Of a stretch of DNA of 64,000 bases, positions 29,649-46,304 are shown piece by piece. Position numbers and translations under genes: made by a program. Source of the DNA: a virus; IMG/VR virus record IMGVR_UViG_3300028393_000062, positions 1 through 64,000 of that record; one strand, 5' to 3'. The notes beneath the pieces were generated by a model. The model was not told the origin of the DNA. It was given only the letters and a program-made list of their open reading frames with translations, and made no database searches. The first letter of the stretch is position 1, and every line of letters starts with the position of its first letter.

Positions 29649-31076
29649 TTAAGCGTTTTGGATTTTTACAGTGCCAAGTACGCCGGTAGATGGAGCAGTG
29701 GCAGTGCCAAATGTCCAACCAACGTGCTGCGGTTCGTTGCCCAATGGACCGCCTAATGGGAAATCAGGAGTACCATCACCTTTTGGATAAACTGTTGCAC
29801 GGTGTGTAGTTAGTTTAGTAACCCAATAGTTTGCAGTAGTAGTATGGTCAGTAGCAGTAATATATGCTTCGCCAACAGCTGGACTATTACTAGCGACTAA
29901 TTTAACTGTAGCAATACCGTCTGCGGTACGAACTTGATAACGGCTGCTACCTTTTTGCTTGATAATATCACCAATCTTTGCGCCAGCACCAGTTGTATTG
30001 GCATAGATGATAATAGCATTTTCTTGATTAGTTGCAGCATTTTGATCAGTACCTACATTATTACCAGAACCTAAGAAGCCGCCACTGTCAGTTGTTAATA
30101 CTGCGGCGCCTGTTGCGCGAACTTCGCTACCAGACACTGTTGAGAATGTTGGAAGTGCGTCTGCTACAGTAGTATAACCAGAACCTTTTTGTGCAATTTC
30201 AACAGTCTTAACACCGTAGTATACATCCATCTGAGCAGCAACACTTGGAGTTGCACCAGATACTCTAGTTACTGATACGTGTGCTGGACTAACTGCTGTG
30301 TAGTCACCTGCTGTTACTAGTTCAATGTCACCAATGCCCCATACAACATTAATACGAGCGCCGGAACCGTTTGTATCACCAGAACCTTGTCCGTATGCTG
30401 GATAACCATTGTGCTGACCGTCAGCACCTGCTGTACTACGTGTGTTATCACTTGTTAGGTCAAAGTATGCTGGAGGAGTGCCTGTACCTGTCCAACGTCC
30501 GCTAGCGGCCACTGTTCCACTAATAAACGAATGATCATTGCCTGCGGTTGTGCCTGTTGTTGCTGGGAAAATTCTAAATGGGCTTGCCCAGTTTGTGCTG
30601 TTACCACCGTTGCTATTGTAACTATCAAGTACAATAGATTCTGTGCCATCGTAGTTGTTATTACCTTCACCTTCGGTATCTTTTGAAGGGTCAACTAAGA
30701 ATGATTGAACACGTAAACTTGTTACGCGGAAAGTTGCCGTGGTGCCTGTGCCTGCGATACTAAAAATATCGCCAACTTGATATCCTTGACCTGCTGCCCA
30801 CACTGTTGCTGTTGTTGCTTGAACATGAGTTACTGAACCTGTGGCTTGTACTCCGCCCGGAATATCAGGTGTAGAAAATGTAACTGCTGGAATACGTGCT
30901 AAGTAAGAACCAATATTACCGCTGCCAAAGTCGACGTTAGCAACACCTTCGCCGCCGATGCCGTCATCTCCGCCGCGTCTGGTAATATTGCCGTTTCCGT
31001 CTTTAGTAACGCCTTGGGCACCACCGGTACCAATGTTGCGATTACCAAAATATTTTTTATTTAAAGGACGTCCCAT
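29649..31076 (-). CDS. Probable capsid-associated or decoration protein
   Basis: A 475-residue, Gly/Thr/Ser-rich protein starting MGRPLNKKYFGNRNIGTGG. It has two phrases, GYQVGDIFSIAGTGTTATF (about residue 98) and GSGYTTVADALPTFS (about residue 298), of a type repeated in phage virion proteins. The many beta-like segments lack enzymatic motifs. It is the first gene after the major capsid gene, with its own late box (31166-31173), AAGGAGA ribosome-binding site and strong terminator (29610-29633). Such insulated, strongly expressed monocistronic wiring suggests a high-copy virion component such as a head decoration or fibre protein. The name is inference. Confidence 0.6.
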   Translation of the reverse strand: MGRPLNKKYFGNRNIGTGGAQGVTKDGNGNITRRGGDDGIGGEGVANVDFGSGNIGSYLARIPAVTFSTPDIPGGVQATGSVTHVQATTATVWAAGQGYQVGDIFSIAGTGTTATFRVTSLRVQSFLVDPSKDTEGEGNNNYDGTESIVLDSYNSNGGNSTNWASPFRIFPATTGTTAGNDHSFISGTVAASGRWTGTGTPPAYFDLTSDNTRSTAGADGQHNGYPAYGQGSGDTNGSGARINVVWGIGDIELVTAGDYTAVSPAHVSVTRVSGATPSVAAQMDVYYGVKTVEIAQKGSGYTTVADALPTFSTVSGSEVRATGAAVLTTDSGGFLGSGNNVGTDQNAATNQENAIIIYANTTGAGAKIGDIIKQKGSSRYQVRTADGIATVKLVASNSPAVGEAYITATDHTTTANYWVTKLTTHRATVYPKGDGTPDFPLGGPLGNEPQHVGWTFGTATAPSTGVLGTVKIQNA

Positions 31077-31165
31077 TTTATTTTCTCCTTAAGAAATTAT
31101 GACGTTTTAGGTCATACGCGGTTGGATTTCCGCATAAGATTTACCCAATGTAAATCGTACTCTAT

Positions 31166-40405: not shown

Positions 40406-41302
40406 GTGCAACCAACCAATGTTCAATTCCCATCGTCTGCCGCATCATTGCCTATTTCAAATCCGCTGGCCATGTATATGCGTCAGCCTAAGATTTACTT
40501 TAGATTACCCAGCAGTGGAAATTTTTGGCCCAAAGGCAGCATTGAAATTCCAGAGACTGGACAGTTACCGGTATATTCAATGACTGCCAAAGATGAATTA
40601 TTATTGAATGTACCAGATGCATTAATGAATGGGCAAGCTGTTGTTGATGTAATACAAAACTGTATTCCCAGCATAAAAAATGCTTGGCAGGCTCCCAGTA
40701 TTGACATTGATGCCATGCTTATTGCCATTAGAATTGCAACATATGGAGAAATGATGGATACACCCGTGACATTTAAAAATGATATTGTAATGGATTATCA
40801 AATTGATCTGCGCACTGTATTAGATAATTTGATTCAATCCATATCCTGGGATAATGCAATAGAAATTAGTAGCGAACTTACTGTATTTGTCAAACCCCTC
40901 AACTATAAACAACTAACTGAATCGGCATTACAAAGTTTTGAAACTCAAAAAATTATGCAGTTGAGTAACAATGATTCAATAAGTGAAGATGAAAAAGTCA
41001 AAATGTTTAAAGAAAGTTTTGCTAAACTGACTAATTCTACAGTGGGTATGGTATCAGCTAGTATTAGTCATATTGACACATTACAGGGTAGTACAGATAA
41101 TCCCACTTTTATTAAAGATTTTATTGACAATGTGGACAAAGATGTTTTTAATAAAATTCAAAAACATTTAGATAAGTTAAAAGATATAAATTCTATCAAA
41201 CCAATGACTGTACCTGTAACTGATGAAATGCGAGAAAAAGGCATTTCAGGCGACTCAGTTGAAATTCCATTAGTTTTTGACGCATCAACTTTTTTCGTAT
41301 GA
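40406..41302 (+). CDS. 26: Baseplate hub/assembly protein gp26-like
   Basis: A 298-residue protein. The N-terminal part contains KIYFRLPSSGNFWPKGSIEI, YSMTAKDELLLNVPDALMNG, and CIPSIKNAWQAPSIDIDAML followed by AIRIATYG. This is the pattern of the T4 baseplate protein family that includes gp26 (LPSKG near the start, then xMTxKxE, then RxxxYG). T4 gp26 (about 208 residues) helps assemble the baseplate hub; the extra C-terminal helical region here is unassigned. The start is GTG, chosen because CGGAGAAA lies 5-6 bp upstream and the only nearby ATG is out of frame. It overlaps the next gene by 4 bp (ATGA-type), implying coupled translation. Confidence 0.7.
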   Translation: MQPTNVQFPSSAASLPISNPLAMYMRQPKIYFRLPSSGNFWPKGSIEIPETGQLPVYSMTAKDELLLNVPDALMNGQAVVDVIQNCIPSIKNAWQAPSIDIDAMLIAIRIATYGEMMDTPVTFKNDIVMDYQIDLRTVLDNLIQSISWDNAIEISSELTVFVKPLNYKQLTESALQSFETQKIMQLSNNDSISEDEKVKMFKESFAKLTNSTVGMVSASISHIDTLQGSTDNPTFIKDFIDNVDKDVFNKIQKHLDKLKDINSIKPMTVPVTDEMREKGISGDSVEIPLVFDASTFFV

Positions 41303-41526
41303 GGCTTTTGTATCTTGATGCTGCTGGTATTGAACGCATAGTAAAAGAATACGACAGCAATACAAGAGCCTTAAAAGAAGAATTATTAAGAATTTGCTGG
41401 TTTATGCGTGGCGGGATTGGTTACAACGACAGTCATATGCTGACCGTTGAAGAAAGAACTTTGATCAGCAAAATTGTAGAAAAGAATTTGGAAACCACAA
41501 AGGAAAGTGGTTTGCCTTTCTTTTAA
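41299..41526 (+). CDS. Small baseplate-assembly candidate (gp51 position)
   Basis: A 75-residue helical protein (MRLLYLDAAGIERIVKEYDS; then LRICWFMRGG; ending ETTKESGLPFF). It starts inside the last codons of the gp26-like gene, so the two are translated together. In T4-like phages a small gene after gene 26 is often annotated as gp51, a hub-assembly catalyst. The WFMRGG phrase reminds me of that short family, but I cannot confirm it and leave the symbol empty. Its stop overlaps the stop of the convergent 41523-42380 gene within the tetranucleotide TTAA. Confidence 0.6.
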   Translation: MRLLYLDAAGIERIVKEYDSNTRALKEELLRICWFMRGGIGYNDSHMLTVEERTLISKIVEKNLETTKESGLPFF

Positions 41527-42380
41527 AGAACAATTCCTAAGAAACGACTGAACCCTACATTTTCCATAGTTTTCTTTTCAGTATCCACTGCCTTTGCTTC
41601 ATTGTCTGCACGATCCAATCCGTCACGAATTGATTGACGTAGTGCAGGACCATTTTTTTCATCGTTGTATGTTGCTTTATAATATTCAACTATTGTTTCT
41701 GCATTAATTACAGGAGCATTTCCAGTAGATACCGATTGTGCCCCTGTATCAAATGAGGGGATGCCTTGGTTTGAAGGCTGACCACTTACACTATTTGATG
41801 CTGTTTGATTGCCCATAGTCGAAGGCTGTCCAGCAGGTTGAGAAGTTTGTTGTTGTGATTGAGCAACTGCTGAAAAGATATCATTAAGTTGTTGTTTGTT
41901 TAATGGGGAATTTTCTTGTATTTTTGAGAGTTTGTCTTCATTCATGCCAGGAATACCTCTAGATCCAAATTTCTGAGGCACAGGTTCCTCTTTTGGAGGT
42001 TTAGGCGTCATACCTGCTTGAGCAGTTTGTGCAGCCTTTTTAAATTTTTGTTGTTGTGTTTGCGAAGCTGCTGATGATGTTGTAGTATCTACTTCTGTAG
42101 GTAATTTGGAACGAGCAGCATCAATAGCACGAGATCCGTATCCCAGTTGTTTAAGAAATTCAATAACAGAATCACTATCTGATGTCTTATTGTGTTGTTT
42201 TAACCAATATGTAAATTTAGTTAGCATTTGAGACACAGTACTACTTTGTTGATAAACATTTTTCGCACCCTGCACGGAGCCTTTGACGTTTCCAACAACT
42301 TTTCCTATTCCTTGGCTAACACCTGCAAGGCTTATTTCATCTAGAGATAGATCTTCGAGTATAATGTCATTAAGTTTCAT
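41523..42380 (-). CDS. Hypothetical late protein, low-complexity
   Basis: A 285-residue protein with no recognised family. The first 25 residues (MKLNDIILEDLSLDEISLAG) form an acidic helix of the kind found at the start of several phage internal or scaffold-associated proteins. The middle is Gln/Ser/Pro-rich (TTSSAASQTQQQ; QSQQQTSQPAGQPS) and probably disordered. The C-terminus is helical and charged. The family is not identifiable by eye. A CATAAATA late box (42403-42410) lies 22 bp upstream, so it is expressed late although it sits beside the early-type 46/47/55 cluster. A virion-internal or assembly role is possible but unproven. Confidence 0.6.
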   Translation of the reverse strand: MKLNDIILEDLSLDEISLAGVSQGIGKVVGNVKGSVQGAKNVYQQSSTVSQMLTKFTYWLKQHNKTSDSDSVIEFLKQLGYGSRAIDAARSKLPTEVDTTTSSAASQTQQQKFKKAAQTAQAGMTPKPPKEEPVPQKFGSRGIPGMNEDKLSKIQENSPLNKQQLNDIFSAVAQSQQQTSQPAGQPSTMGNQTASNSVSGQPSNQGIPSFDTGAQSVSTGNAPVINAETIVEYYKATYNDEKNGPALRQSIRDGLDRADNEAKAVDTEKKTMENVGFSRFLGIVL

Positions 42381-42402
42381 GGGTATTCCAAATTTGATAT
42401 TT

Positions 42403-42410
42403 TATTTATG
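42403..42410 (-). promoter_or_regulatory. T4-type late promoter box CATAAATA
   Basis: The minus strand reads CATAAATAA 22 bp before the ATG at 42380 and 5 bp beyond the perfect hairpin at 42416-42435. It separates the late gene from the structured stretch. Confidence 0.6.
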
Positions 42411-42836
42411 TAAGGAAATGAGCATTCGCTCATTTGTTCTATCGCTCACGCTCAGAACATTTTAAGTCGAAGACTAATAATATTATCCAGATTAATCGCT
42501 CACACTTTGCCCAGACAAGGGCAAAGAAACATTATCCGAGTTGAACCATGTCACTTAGTGTTACTGCATTACAGAGGCGGTCATCCGGTACCTCGAGCAG
42601 CGTCTTTATACGACGGCGGCTTATGTATATACACTAACATATACATAAACGTAGGGAATACTATCCCTTCATTTTGCTTATTCTTTATCTTCAAACATCT
42701 AAACCGCAAGCATTTGCGATCTTCGTCCTGTTAAGGATAGTAGATGAGTGCTCACTTCAGCGGTGAGTCTTCCGTCCCCGTTATTATCCGGTTGTCACTA
42801 GGCACCCGTGCTAAGCCGGTGCGAGCCAATCCTGAA
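42411..42836 (-). ncRNA. Hairpin-rich stretch without a gene; candidate structured RNA
   Basis: This is the only gap over 300 bp in the window (42381-42836, 456 bp). It is visibly richer in G and C than its surroundings. Perfect stems: 42416-42435 (8 bp, 4-nt loop), 42505-42526 (8 bp, 6-nt loop), 42621-42648 (10 bp, 8-nt loop), 42705-42718 (5 bp, tetraloop), 42751-42767 (5 bp, 7-nt loop). A 7-bp long-range pairing joins ACTATCC (42660-42666) to GGATAGT (42735-42741) around one of them. The motif ATTATCC occurs at 42482, 42531 and 42783, and CGCTCA at 42427, 42443, 42449 and 42497. It follows the GIY-YIG gene at the end of an early-type transcript. No tRNA, tmRNA, RNase P or intron core could be recognised. 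The strand is inferred from the flanking genes. Confidence 0.5.
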
Positions 42837-43259
42837 TTACTTTTTTAAAATGTGGGAGCCATGAACGCGGACCGAGATTTGTCCATTGTAGTAGTCTGTA
42901 GATTCAAGTACTTTGCGGTCGAATTGTTCACGGGCCTCAATGTAACTACATTCACTTTTACTTTTGCAGTAATATAATATCTCTCTTTTGAAATTTTCTT
43001 TGCCTATTTTTGCTATATCTGCTGTTAACTCTAGACTGGACCCGTAATATTCCTGCCAGTCAGATTCGATTTTGCTTCGAATTTTCTTCTTTTTCTTTGT
43101 GCCATTCTTTAATGTTACAGTCTTATATGTGGTCTTCGCAAACTTTGCGAGTTTCTTTCCTATATATTTTCTGCCATTTGTCAAATTTGTAATCAAATAG
43201 ACAAACCCCGCGCAATCATCGGGAAGTTCGTTTACTATTTGATCCTGGTACGTCCACAT
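42837..43259 (-). CDS. GIY-YIG family endonuclease
   Basis: A 140-residue protein with a GIY-YIG nuclease core: GFVYLI at residues 18-23 and KYIGKK at about 31-36 stand for the two name-giving strands. YIEAREQFDRKVL follows in the C-terminal half, carrying the conserved Glu-rich helix. A lysine-rich insert (LKNGTKKKKKIRSK) lies between them. There is no obvious extra DNA-binding domain, so this is a minimal nuclease. Such proteins in T4-like phages include free-standing homing endonucleases (Seg-like) and others of unknown role. The start overlaps the 43216-43554 gene by 44 bp. Directly downstream lies the hairpin-rich gap 42381-42836. Nuclease activity is likely; mobility is inferred. Confidence 0.85.
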   Translation of the reverse strand: MWTYQDQIVNELPDDCAGFVYLITNLTNGRKYIGKKLAKFAKTTYKTVTLKNGTKKKKKIRSKIESDWQEYYGSSLELTADIAKIGKENFKREILYYCKSKSECSYIEAREQFDRKVLESTDYYNGQISVRVHGSHILKK

Positions 43260-43554
43260 TCTGTTTTACTGGTTTTGGTTTTTTCTCACCAGGTGGCCTA
43301 CCTAACGGAGCCGGAGATATAATATGTTGTGTCTCTTCGGCCAGTTTTGACAAACGAATCATTTCATATTGTATGGAACGCATTCTTCTCATATGTCTAC
43401 GTAATAAACCACCAGGGTTATTTCTTATCTTTTTAAAAGACAAGAACGTTGTATGGTAGTTATGCAATTCAATCATTAGGCCTAAAAATTCTGAGTATAA
43501 TTTCTTATACTGTTCCAATTCTTCATTCACTTGTGGAGTATGAGGTGAAACCAT
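43216..43554 (-). CDS. Small helical protein overlapping gene 46
   Basis: A 112-residue protein. The first 70 residues are helical and charged (EELEQYKKLYSEFLGLMIEL, then YHTTFLSFKKI, then RMRSIQYEMIRLSKLAE). The tail is Pro/Lys-rich (PLGRPPGEKKPKP) and probably disordered and nucleic-acid-attracting. The start lies 32 bp inside the end of gene 46 and the end overlaps the GIY-YIG gene by 44 bp, so all three are translated from one message. I do not recognise the family. The position suggests a recombination- or replication-linked accessory role, by context only. Confidence 0.6.
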   Translation of the reverse strand: MVSPHTPQVNEELEQYKKLYSEFLGLMIELHNYHTTFLSFKKIRNNPGGLLRRHMRRMRSIQYEMIRLSKLAEETQHIISPAPLGRPPGEKKPKPVKQNVDVPGSNSKRTSR

Positions 43555-45289
43555 TTTCTTTTACTACCCTAAGTACATTGTTAACACGACCTACCAACTC
43601 GTCCTTGTGGGAGATTAGGTAAATGTTCTTGTTTCGTTCGCGAGCCATTTTCTTTAATACTGCCAGTGCACTTTCTACACCAGCACTATCCATACCAGCA
43701 TCAACCAATTCATCAATAAACAGCAAGTTAATACTTTGATACAGGCCTTCCCATACATCACGGAATGCAAAACTCATACTCAAAATCAATCGATTACGTT
43801 CACCACGTGACAAATTATCAAAGTCTAAGTCTTGTCCCAACTGTGTAATCTCTACATTCAAATCGTTTTGGAATATAACACGATGTGGTAGACCCAACTT
43901 GTCAATATAGTAGCCCAGTCGCTTGTTCAAGTAACTTAAATTCTGATCAATAATCTTTTTACGGACAAAACTATCTTTGTTAGTCAACAGTTTCAACAAG
44001 AATTCTTGATGATCCTTAAGACTTGTTAGATTATTAATTGTGTCCCAAATGATTTCTTGTATTGCAGACTTTTTAAGTTCGTCAACTTGTTCAGCATATG
44101 GGTTTACATCATCTGCTCTCTCAGTTAACTTGCGTTCTAAACTGTCTAAATTATTTTTGTGTCCCAGTGCTTCTGCTTCTGTGTCGTAGAATGTTATGGG
44201 TCTGCGAGGTTGATCACCTGTACCCAGTTCTTCTACAACTTTAAGATAATCTCCACTGACTTTATCAAAGTAAGTTAATGCATCAGCCAAGTGTTGATTG
44301 GCAGTTGCAGTCATTTCTTCGTGTTTATGATCGTGCAGTTCCTGTTCACAAGCGTGACAAGTCTTATTACCTAAACTGGCCAGTTCCTTTTGATACTTCT
44401 TAACAGTTTTGTCAGCCTGACTAACTGCGGACTCTAGCGTAGATTTTTGTTTATTAAGATTATTAATCTTAGTATTGTTTTCTTCCCACACCTTTAACTG
44501 AGCGTGTGCTGCCAATTCTTGTTCAATGTCAACTGTAACTAGGGTTTGTATACTGTTTACAAGTGACGTCAAGTCAGTTTCCTTCTTGCTTTCCCACGCT
44601 TTACTCTTTAATTCAAGTGAATTAATGCTGATTTGAATGTTATCATTGGCACGTTTGGTAGCATCGATCCTAGCAGTTTCTTCTACAATACTATCTTTTG
44701 TAGTTTTAACAGATGCTTTTAGTATCTCTGCCTTTTCACTCAGCAATGTAATACCCAGCAGTTGCTCGATAACTTCACGCTGATCAGCAGCCCGCATACT
44801 TAGGAACGGCTCGGTATAAGTGTTTAATGCCACAAGATGTTTGAACATTGTATGTGACATTTCCAACATCTGTTCAATGGCCTTTTGTGTTTCACGGCTA
44901 TCTCCCTGACTGTCGTCCTCCGAATCTTCAGTTTTTAGTTGGTTATCGTTTACAAACAGTTTAAGTACATTGGGTTTACGCCCGCGCTCAATACGATATT
45001 TGTTACCATTCTTTTCAAACTCCACTGTGACTAACATATTTTTACCGTTAGTCTTGTTAATCAAGTTTTCTTTCTTGATATTAGTCAGTGCTTGTCCATA
45101 CAATGCATAACTTAGTGCATTGATAATTGTAGTTTTACCTGTTCCATTACGTGATCCAGTATCGTCGCCACCTAAATCCAAGTTGGCGCCCAGTACTAAA
45201 GTTAGTTGTTCTTGTTTAAAATCCACGGCTTGGGTTTGCGCACCCACGCTCATAAAATTCTTTACGGTTAAATTATTGATATCAAACAT
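43523..45289 (-). CDS. 46: Recombination endonuclease subunit gp46 (SbcC/Rad50-like ATPase)
   Basis: ATPase subunit of the Mre11/Rad50-type complex that processes DNA ends for recombination-dependent replication. With the start used here it has 588 residues (T4 gp46 has 560). Walker A is GSRNGTGKTT (residues 45-54). A coiled-coil middle carries the zinc hook CHAC. The ABC signature is LSRGERNRL, Walker B is INLLFIDELVDAGMD, and the H-motif is YLISHKDE. I chose the ATG at 45289 (MFDINNLTVKNF), which follows the gene 47 stop by 1 bp. A longer ATG at 45340 would add 17 poorly conserved residues and overlap gene 47. Confidence 0.95.
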   Translation of the reverse strand: MFDINNLTVKNFMSVGAQTQAVDFKQEQLTLVLGANLDLGGDDTGSRNGTGKTTIINALSYALYGQALTNIKKENLINKTNGKNMLVTVEFEKNGNKYRIERGRKPNVLKLFVNDNQLKTEDSEDDSQGDSRETQKAIEQMLEMSHTMFKHLVALNTYTEPFLSMRAADQREVIEQLLGITLLSEKAEILKASVKTTKDSIVEETARIDATKRANDNIQISINSLELKSKAWESKKETDLTSLVNSIQTLVTVDIEQELAAHAQLKVWEENNTKINNLNKQKSTLESAVSQADKTVKKYQKELASLGNKTCHACEQELHDHKHEEMTATANQHLADALTYFDKVSGDYLKVVEELGTGDQPRRPITFYDTEAEALGHKNNLDSLERKLTERADDVNPYAEQVDELKKSAIQEIIWDTINNLTSLKDHQEFLLKLLTNKDSFVRKKIIDQNLSYLNKRLGYYIDKLGLPHRVIFQNDLNVEITQLGQDLDFDNLSRGERNRLILSMSFAFRDVWEGLYQSINLLFIDELVDAGMDSAGVESALAVLKKMARERNKNIYLISHKDELVGRVNNVLRVVKENGFTSYSTSE

Positions 45290-45290
45290 C

Positions 45291-46304
45291 TTATAGGTCG
45301 TTGTAAATTTGTAAAAGTGTGTTTTTGTCAAATTGGCCATTCTCTAAGTTAACTAAACTGTCAGTGACAATTTGATCAACGCTTTCAAATAGGCTGTCGG
45401 GGTTTTCATCTACAGTACCATCCAAGTTAACTTTATCTTGGATTAGACTAATCTCTCTAATATCATAGTCTTGCACAAACTTTTCTTTTAGGAAGTTGGC
45501 TTCTTCAAAGGTAATATCAATGTCCAGATTTACCTTTAAGTGCATCTTACCCTTCATAATATTGTCTGTATCATCGAGTAGTTGGCTTAATTTAAGTGTA
45601 CGGAACTTGGGACAGTTGGGCCAATTAACAAATTGTGGCTCGCCTCCCCATTCTAAAATCATCATACCACGGTCATCGTCCCACGAATCTGCAAAATTAT
45701 GCGGGAAGGCATTGCCAATATACCAAATTCGTTCTTTGTTTTGACGTTTGTGGAAGTGTCCACTAAACACATAGTCCTGATGTACAAAGTGTCCCGGGCT
45801 TAGTTCGCCGTGATCGGGCATTTGCACCATAGCATTCATATAGAATAAGGGCAATTCAAAATGCCCAAACATATATTTGCTTTTGATTTTACCTAAATTC
45901 TTCCATTCCTCGCCCACTAGCCAAGGTACAAGGGTGACATCATCAAGTGTTGTAACACTATCTACGATTGTGACACCTGGAATGTGCCGACCAAAGGCAC
46001 TGGAATGAATGTCACGCTTGTCTTTGTAGAACAGATCGTGGTTACCTGGGAACCAAAAGAACTGTTCAAATGCTGCGCCTAATTTTTCTAATAGGCTAAT
46101 TGATGTATTGAGGGTGAATAAGTTGAGACTATTTCTATTGTGCGACCAGTCGCCCATAAAAATACAAGTTTCGCAATTGGCTTTTTTAGCCTCGCTGATA
46201 AACCAGTCTACAAATTCTTCACAATCTCTTAAATGTGTTGTTGAATTGGATTTAAGTCCAACGTGAAGGTCGGTAAAAACCGCTACCTTTTTAAATAGGC
46301 TCAT
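45291..46304 (-). CDS. 47: Recombination endonuclease subunit gp47 (SbcD/Mre11-like)
   Basis: Nuclease partner of gp46. Its 337 residues compare with 339 in T4. The calcineurin-like metallophosphoesterase motifs appear in order: FTDLHVG (about 10-16), MGDWSHNR (about 50-57), PGNHD (about 91-95), GHFEL (about 150), SGHFHKR (about 185-191). These provide the two-metal site. AGGAGA precedes the ATG, and a sigma-70 promoter (46325-46353) lies immediately upstream, so the gene can be transcribed by unmodified host polymerase before late transcription. Gene 46 follows after 1 bp. Confidence 0.95.
   Translation of the reverse strand: MSLFKKVAVFTDLHVGLKSNSTTHLRDCEEFVDWFISEAKKANCETCIFMGDWSHNRNSLNLFTLNTSISLLEKLGAAFEQFFWFPGNHDLFYKDKRDIHSSAFGRHIPGVTIVDSVTTLDDVTLVPWLVGEEWKNLGKIKSKYMFGHFELPLFYMNAMVQMPDHGELSPGHFVHQDYVFSGHFHKRQNKERIWYIGNAFPHNFADSWDDDRGMMILEWGGEPQFVNWPNCPKFRTLKLSQLLDDTDNIMKGKMHLKVNLDIDITFEEANFLKEKFVQDYDIREISLIQDKVNLDGTVDENPDSLFESVDQIVTDSLVNLENGQFDKNTLLQIYNDL

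Follow-up and report, generated by a model that had tools for sequence, protein, structure and literature searches.

Large, pseudoknot-rich RNAs of unknown function, among them GOLLD and ROOL, are carried by phages, and GOLLD combines a constant 3' part with a less conserved 5' part (PMC12286853). A smaller motif, Polynucleobacter-1 (Rfam RF01718), dates from 2010, when Weinberg et al. reported it from Burkholderiales and from fresh water and marked it as possibly cis-regulatory (PMC2864571); a literature search by its name has returned this paper only. The DNA analysed here, referred to as the window, comprises the first 64,000 nt of a 67.7-kb virus record (IMGVR_UViG_3300028393_000062). With chance ORFs set aside, positions 42381-42836 form its sole gap of more than 300 bp, as the initial annotation had reported. 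Comparison with homologues shows that the minus strand of this gap, from 42836 to approximately 42416, specifies an RNA of about 420 nt with conserved structure and with RF01718 membership in its 5' third. The RNA resembles GOLLD and ROOL in being large and pseudoknot-rich, and GOLLD additionally in its constant 3' and less conserved 5' parts. Unlike them it is shorter, carries twin 7-mers and has no tRNA in the window. Identity with either was rejected, with no Rfam match at the gathering level in the window, nor at E values up to 10 in the gap. The initial annotation was right that phages of this kind carry such ornate RNAs.

The Rfam match to RF01718 (91.9 bits, E 2e-18, gathering score 37) spans the full model, positions 1-141 of 141, and conserved, covarying structure runs about 280 nt beyond the end of the model. 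It is therefore the boundary of RF01718, not membership, that is in question: the gap RNA has about three times the length of the Rfam model, and databases so far list only its first third. The family that had gone unrecognised in the earlier reading can thus be found with Rfam, though the match covers only 135 of the ~420 nt. The 5' third of the gap RNA matches Polynucleobacter-1 end to end, and this family has Burkholderiales members as well. Where Rfam stops after 141 positions, the gap RNA has about 300 nt more with a 3' module, and the Burkholderiales matches are likewise followed by some 300 nt with this module. A weak cow-rumen-2 hit to the gap (23 bits against a cut-off of 66) was set aside, reappearing in only one of 19 other sources.

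Several properties of the gap sequence had been put forward from the letters alone. The gap is indeed richer in G+C (0.423 against 0.385), as are about 16% of equal-sized stretches, and the five perfect stems listed (42416-42435, 42505-42526, 42621-42648, 42705-42718 and 42751-42767) were recovered position for position. The minus strand folds better than its shuffles (z -2.5, 0/100), and so does the plus strand (z -2.6). Since both strands beat their shuffles about equally, fold energy cannot tell the strand, which is the minus strand as decided by Rfam and the homologues. The repeat counts (ATTATCC three times, CGCTCA four times) are correct, but mean little by themselves, as a 7-mer occurring three times or a 6-mer occurring four times arises in 12-14% of shuffles. 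Two of the three ATTATCC copies are, however, the twin sites described below, the most remarkable part of the RNA. A proposed 7-bp long-range pairing (42660-42666 with 42735-42741) is not conserved, its seven pairs forming in 9/89 to 108/130 homologues. A protein-coding reading was rejected, as no open frame dominates among the homologues. Blastn searches with window-type RNAs against cultured phages gave short matches at the late-gene start only, or nothing.

Homologues of the whole RNA have been found at approximately 150 viral loci by two routes. Searches through homologues of the adjoining SegE gene gave 80 viral loci, of which about 50 hold a gap homologue, mostly full-length, and a search with a pattern internal to the RNA, which makes no use of SegE, added over 100 homologues. 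An alignment of 131 distinct viral sequences over the whole gap (mean identity 65%) was examined with a tree-aware script of our own, modelled on the idea of R-scape, in which the substitutions of each column are re-placed on the tree as the null. In this alignment 40 column pairs covary at E<0.05, most of them standard pairs and spread over the whole length. An independent count used 59 diverse sequences and a named structure whose 91 pairs include those of the pseudoknots. Standard pairs make up 82.8% of its cells, against 37-44% in slid controls, a level reached by 0/500 shuffles, and double changes number 844 against 142-202 when slid. Helices 3, 7, 15 and 17 of this structure are mis-registered or weak and are not claimed. 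The stems, whose lack of covariation had been named in the initial annotation as grounds for giving up the RNA, thus covary strongly, and the large structured ncRNA it suspected is supported by Rfam, homologues and covariation together.

As shown by these comparisons, the predicted fold is conserved and has three parts (Table 1). A 5' domain is followed by a compact core with pseudoknots and then by a 3' module, in which two identical 7-nt sites flank a hairpin ahead of the terminal hairpins. In the core, a long hairpin (42638-42650/42619-42631) has a loop, 42631-42637, that pairs with 42555-42561, 70 nt downstream, while the loop (42580-42584) of a bulged hairpin at 42574-42594 pairs with 42610-42614, 26 nt upstream of that hairpin; a helix of 42597-42601 with 42563-42567 closes the core. 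Of the two terminal hairpins, the last (42428-42435/42416-42424) is 95-97% paired, with changes on both sides, and the other is 69% paired.

Table 1. Coordinates of the predicted RNA, its parts and its neighbours in the window.
Feature	Position	Strand	Basis or remark
Whole structured ncRNA, ~420 nt	42416..42836	-	Starts at SegE stop codon; homologues and covariation
5' domain, RF01718 Polynucleobacter-1	42693..42827	-	Rfam 91.9 bits
Pseudoknot of RNA 5' end 42831-42835 with hairpin loop 42757-42761	42757..42835	-	Covarying pairs, E 0.02-0.03; 89% of cells paired
Helix 42741-42746/42696-42701 around hairpin 42716-42721/42702-42707	42696..42746	-	E down to 2e-7; 99-100% paired
Core	42555..42650	-	Pairs covary at E down to 7e-9; those of the pseudoknots mostly 97-100% paired; common to 121Q-type RNAs
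Twin site copy 1, ACUC-GGAUAAU	42531..42537	-	Identity covariation with copy 2
Hairpin between twin sites	42505..42526	-	Conserved UUUGCCC/GGGCAAAG
Twin site copy 2, AAUCU-GGAUAAU	42482..42488	-	As copy 1; distant relatives have this layout with different 7-mers
Two 3' terminal hairpins, 42454-42457/42437-42440 and 42428-42435/42416-42424	42416..42457	-	Covariation
SegE-like GIY-YIG nuclease gene, directly 5' of RNA	42837..43259	-	PF19835, E 1.6e-34
gp46 and gp47 homologues (SbcC/SbcD-like), same cluster	43523..46304	-	PHROG 77 and 100
T4-late-like box CATAAATA for downstream gene	42403..42410	-	Sequence; 23 nt ahead of ATG at 42380
Downstream gene with own late box, outside RNA	41523..42380	-	Variable between relatives
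Converging 75-aa gene and gp26-like baseplate hub gene bounding the slot	40406..41526	+	PHROG 150; same slot in 121Q and GAP32

The 3' module contains two copies of one 7-mer. Columns 303, 304, 307 and 309 of the 131-sequence alignment covary with columns 354, 355, 358 and 360 by identity and not by pairing, with each column pair identical in 130 of the 131 sequences and about 50 substitutions reconstructed as one and the same change on the same branch (25, 6, 9 and 10). Within the RNA, no other column of this alignment behaves as a standard-pair partner of the twin sites, and the flanking DNA is enriched neither in the RNA's own 7-mer nor in the complement of it. Mutual pairing of the two copies was discarded, as two copies of one sequence cannot pair in register and G>C and G>A changes break the helix suggested by alifold. 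Gene conversion was likewise rejected as the origin of the identity, since the identical tract stops sharply and its flanks are not homogenised (columns 300-302 are identical in 0-1 of 131 sequences and column 310 in 12 of 131). The layout of ACUC-N7, hairpin and AUCU-N7 recurs with ACAUGAA, AGUUGAA and ACAUAAA, the first of these in a type B RNA that follows SegE at four loci, has another 5' part of 300 nt with the same 3' module, and has no Rfam match. In Burkholderiales genomes the module recurs downstream of RF01718 matches with the twins AACAAAA, AGCGAAA and GGCGAAA, and AGCGAUG was read by eye. In type B and Burkholderiales RNAs alike, the twins are identical within a pair and differ in sequence from those of the window. 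It is rare in evolution for two separated sites to covary by identity where no complementary partner exists, and this signature points to a concrete, findable partner in trans.

In the window the RNA lies after a minus-strand early cluster and ends ahead of a T4-like late box, in agreement with the initial annotation. Nearly all loci in which the gene order is visible keep gp47-gp46-(variable)-SegE-RNA, with a SegE-RNA spacing of 0-70 nt in nearly all of them. On the 3' side of the RNA there are differing genes or, in more than 20 loci, the converging 75-aa gene at the RNA 3' end. No fixed promoter precedes the window-type RNA across its homologues, as would fit a 3' trailer. We infer that the RNA is the 3' trailer of the gp47-gp46-SegE operon, transcribed as the end of its message. 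The window gp46 has its nearest counterparts in PA5oct, Atu_ph07 and similar jumbo phages, and RNA-bearing contigs are up to about 350 kb long, so that the window phage would probably be a jumbo T4-like phage. At three loci an insert of 790-870 nt separates SegE and RNA. The protein encoded at 42837-43259 falls in PHROG 447, 'NAD synthetase', whereas Pfam gives a SegE GIY-YIG nuclease; this odd name stands on many phage records.

A second set of RNAs, one copy of which occupies the corresponding slot, is present in cultured jumbo phages. In 121Q, GAP32 and XaC1, an unannotated gap of ~800 nt follows gp46 and endonuclease VII, and in 121Q and GAP32 the gap is followed by a small gene and then by a baseplate hub or hypothetical gene. 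The XaC1 gap matches 40 records, mostly at three to five places each, and searches of whole records have shown several copies per genome, with model R2 finding four in 121Q. In 121Q, GAP32, CBB, BF, XaC1, Munch and others, these sequences represent an unlisted structured RNA family of about 670 nt. In 30 aligned copies, all 13 significantly covarying pairs are standard. Together with the window RNA they have in common the motif CCGUUG...GAC...GG-CAA-CC, a GUUG/CAAC pseudoknot and a hairpin loop paired downstream, giving a core of two crossing pseudoknots with the same topology and motif. Their twin sites are a 6-mer, CGUCAR, identical in 28 of the 30 copies. The independent model R1 (R2 was built from both families) has eight matches in the 121Q-type loci, all correctly placed, but at E values of only 0.17-4.8. 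Homology of the two RNAs is suggested by modest scores (best R1 E 0.17), by the shared motif and topology and by synteny. Like the window RNA, the 121Q-type RNA has the gp46-gp26 slot, the core topology and motif and a twin-site module; unlike it, it is ~670 nt long, has several copies per genome, its own promoter, a different 5' part and the 6-mer. This promoter, an extended -10 element, TGNTATAAT, lies at a fixed distance in nearly all 121Q-type copies, whereas the window family has no fixed site. The several copies per genome and the position-fixed TGNTATAAT mark the 121Q-type RNAs as stand-alone ncRNA genes. In CBB, a promoter class TGAAACG/TATA has been reported before DNA-synthesis genes (PMC5259590); this class resembles TGNTATAAT. 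The CBB and MIJ3 papers do not mention an ncRNA.

In our preferred reading, to which we give a probability of roughly 55%, the product of the gap is a large ncRNA that acts in trans, serving as a scaffold or decoy with two copies of a single partner docked at its twin sites. This reading draws on the RF01718 match, on homologues reached both through the neighbouring gene and through the RNA-internal pattern, on covariation, on the lack of a dominant open frame, on the variable or converging gene downstream, on the several 121Q-type copies with their own promoter and on the identity of the twin 7-mers. The RNA would be transcribed as the 3' end of an early or middle gp47-gp46-SegE message, or from its own promoter in the 121Q-type phages, and would persist, or be trimmed, as a discrete RNA. 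The partner docked in two copies at the twin sites would be sequence-specific and may be a protein, of the phage or of the host, or a further nucleic acid. It would probably act in the phase of DNA replication and recombination, a timing taken only from neighbours and promoter type. The 5' domain may be exchangeable, with core and module as the common machine. More tentatively, and at somewhat below even odds, these RNAs may constitute an unrecognised superfamily of large trans-acting RNAs in jumbo T4-like phages and bacterial mobile elements, with a pseudoknotted core in common and a module of two sites, where the identical 7-mers evolve in concert as both dock one partner, the RNA joining or titrating two copies of it. 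What had been a small, little-studied Rfam motif would then belong to a jumbo-phage superfamily of large ornate RNAs. Cultured E. coli phages, 121Q among them, have several copies of unannotated members, which makes the function testable in laboratory strains, and the finding bears on why phages carry large ornate RNAs.

The position of the RNA, nearly always directly 3' of SegE and, in the window type, without a fixed promoter of its own, would also suit an element of the 3' UTR that acts in cis to stabilise or control the gp46-SegE message. This reading is unlikely, since the 121Q-type copies, with a promoter of their own, are spread over several unrelated loci, Burkholderiales copies adjoin integrase and DUF6641 genes, and the elaborateness of the fold goes far beyond what a stabiliser would require. 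That the element acts on the gene beyond it, as a leader or riboswitch, was suggested by the possibly cis-regulatory label of 2010 (PMC2864571) and by a gene start often 7-30 nt beyond the RNA. The downstream gene, however, is variable, with its own late box in the window, or convergent in more than 20 loci, so that the RNA is not a leader. This reading is largely refuted by synteny and is hardly tenable.

The neighbouring nuclease and the twin sites have each invited a further explanation. Structured RNAs next to an endonuclease gene are known from HEARO, the omega RNA of IscB, and the gap RNA likewise adjoins such a gene. Tight linkage to a SegE-like gene, and a small nuclease with no evident added DNA-binding domain, could accordingly suggest an RNA cofactor or guide of the GIY-YIG nuclease, with the twin 7-mers as guides. 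We consider this quite improbable, as the nuclease linkage, unlike that of HEARO, is not obligatory: in at least 11 loci SegE is followed directly by an ORF, without the RNA, and 121Q-type and Burkholderiales RNAs have no adjoining SegE. The 7-mers, moreover, are too little varied for guides, and the sites are not guide-like. As strictly identical direct repeats of 7 bp, the twin sites bring recombinase overlap regions to mind, and one Burkholderiales copy lies between integrase genes. A DNA-level element, with the twin 7-mers serving in recombination or protein binding and the RNA fold as a secondary matter, is nevertheless very improbable, given base-pair covariation all around the sites, no integrase seen in the phage slot, a spacing of ~50 bp that is short for excision, and no enrichment of further 7-mer copies in the flanks.

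Other gaps and RNAs were also observed. In Phosso (PV764938, 229.8-230.8 kb), a 1-kb unannotated gap lies beyond gp46 and a resolvase gene, without a match to Rfam or model R2. In PA5oct (MK797984, ~75.9-77.0 kb), the gap beyond gp46 is annotated as mini-ORFs, has a TTGACA-17-TATAAT promoter and shows no match to RF01718 or model R2. Partial copies occur at 12.9 kb and 246 kb, and 11 Pseudomonas phages carry the sequence, which is possibly another large ncRNA. One viral contig (3911-4304 and 8395-8551) contains a tmRNA, a tRNA and an RF01718 RNA, the last with a good promoter 52 nt upstream; it is perhaps an element integrated at the tmRNA gene. In the window itself, a second Rfam RNA of this phage, freshwater-2 (RF02980, Cis-reg; 70.6 bits), lies on the minus strand (31074-31155) at one edge of a gap of 167 bp.
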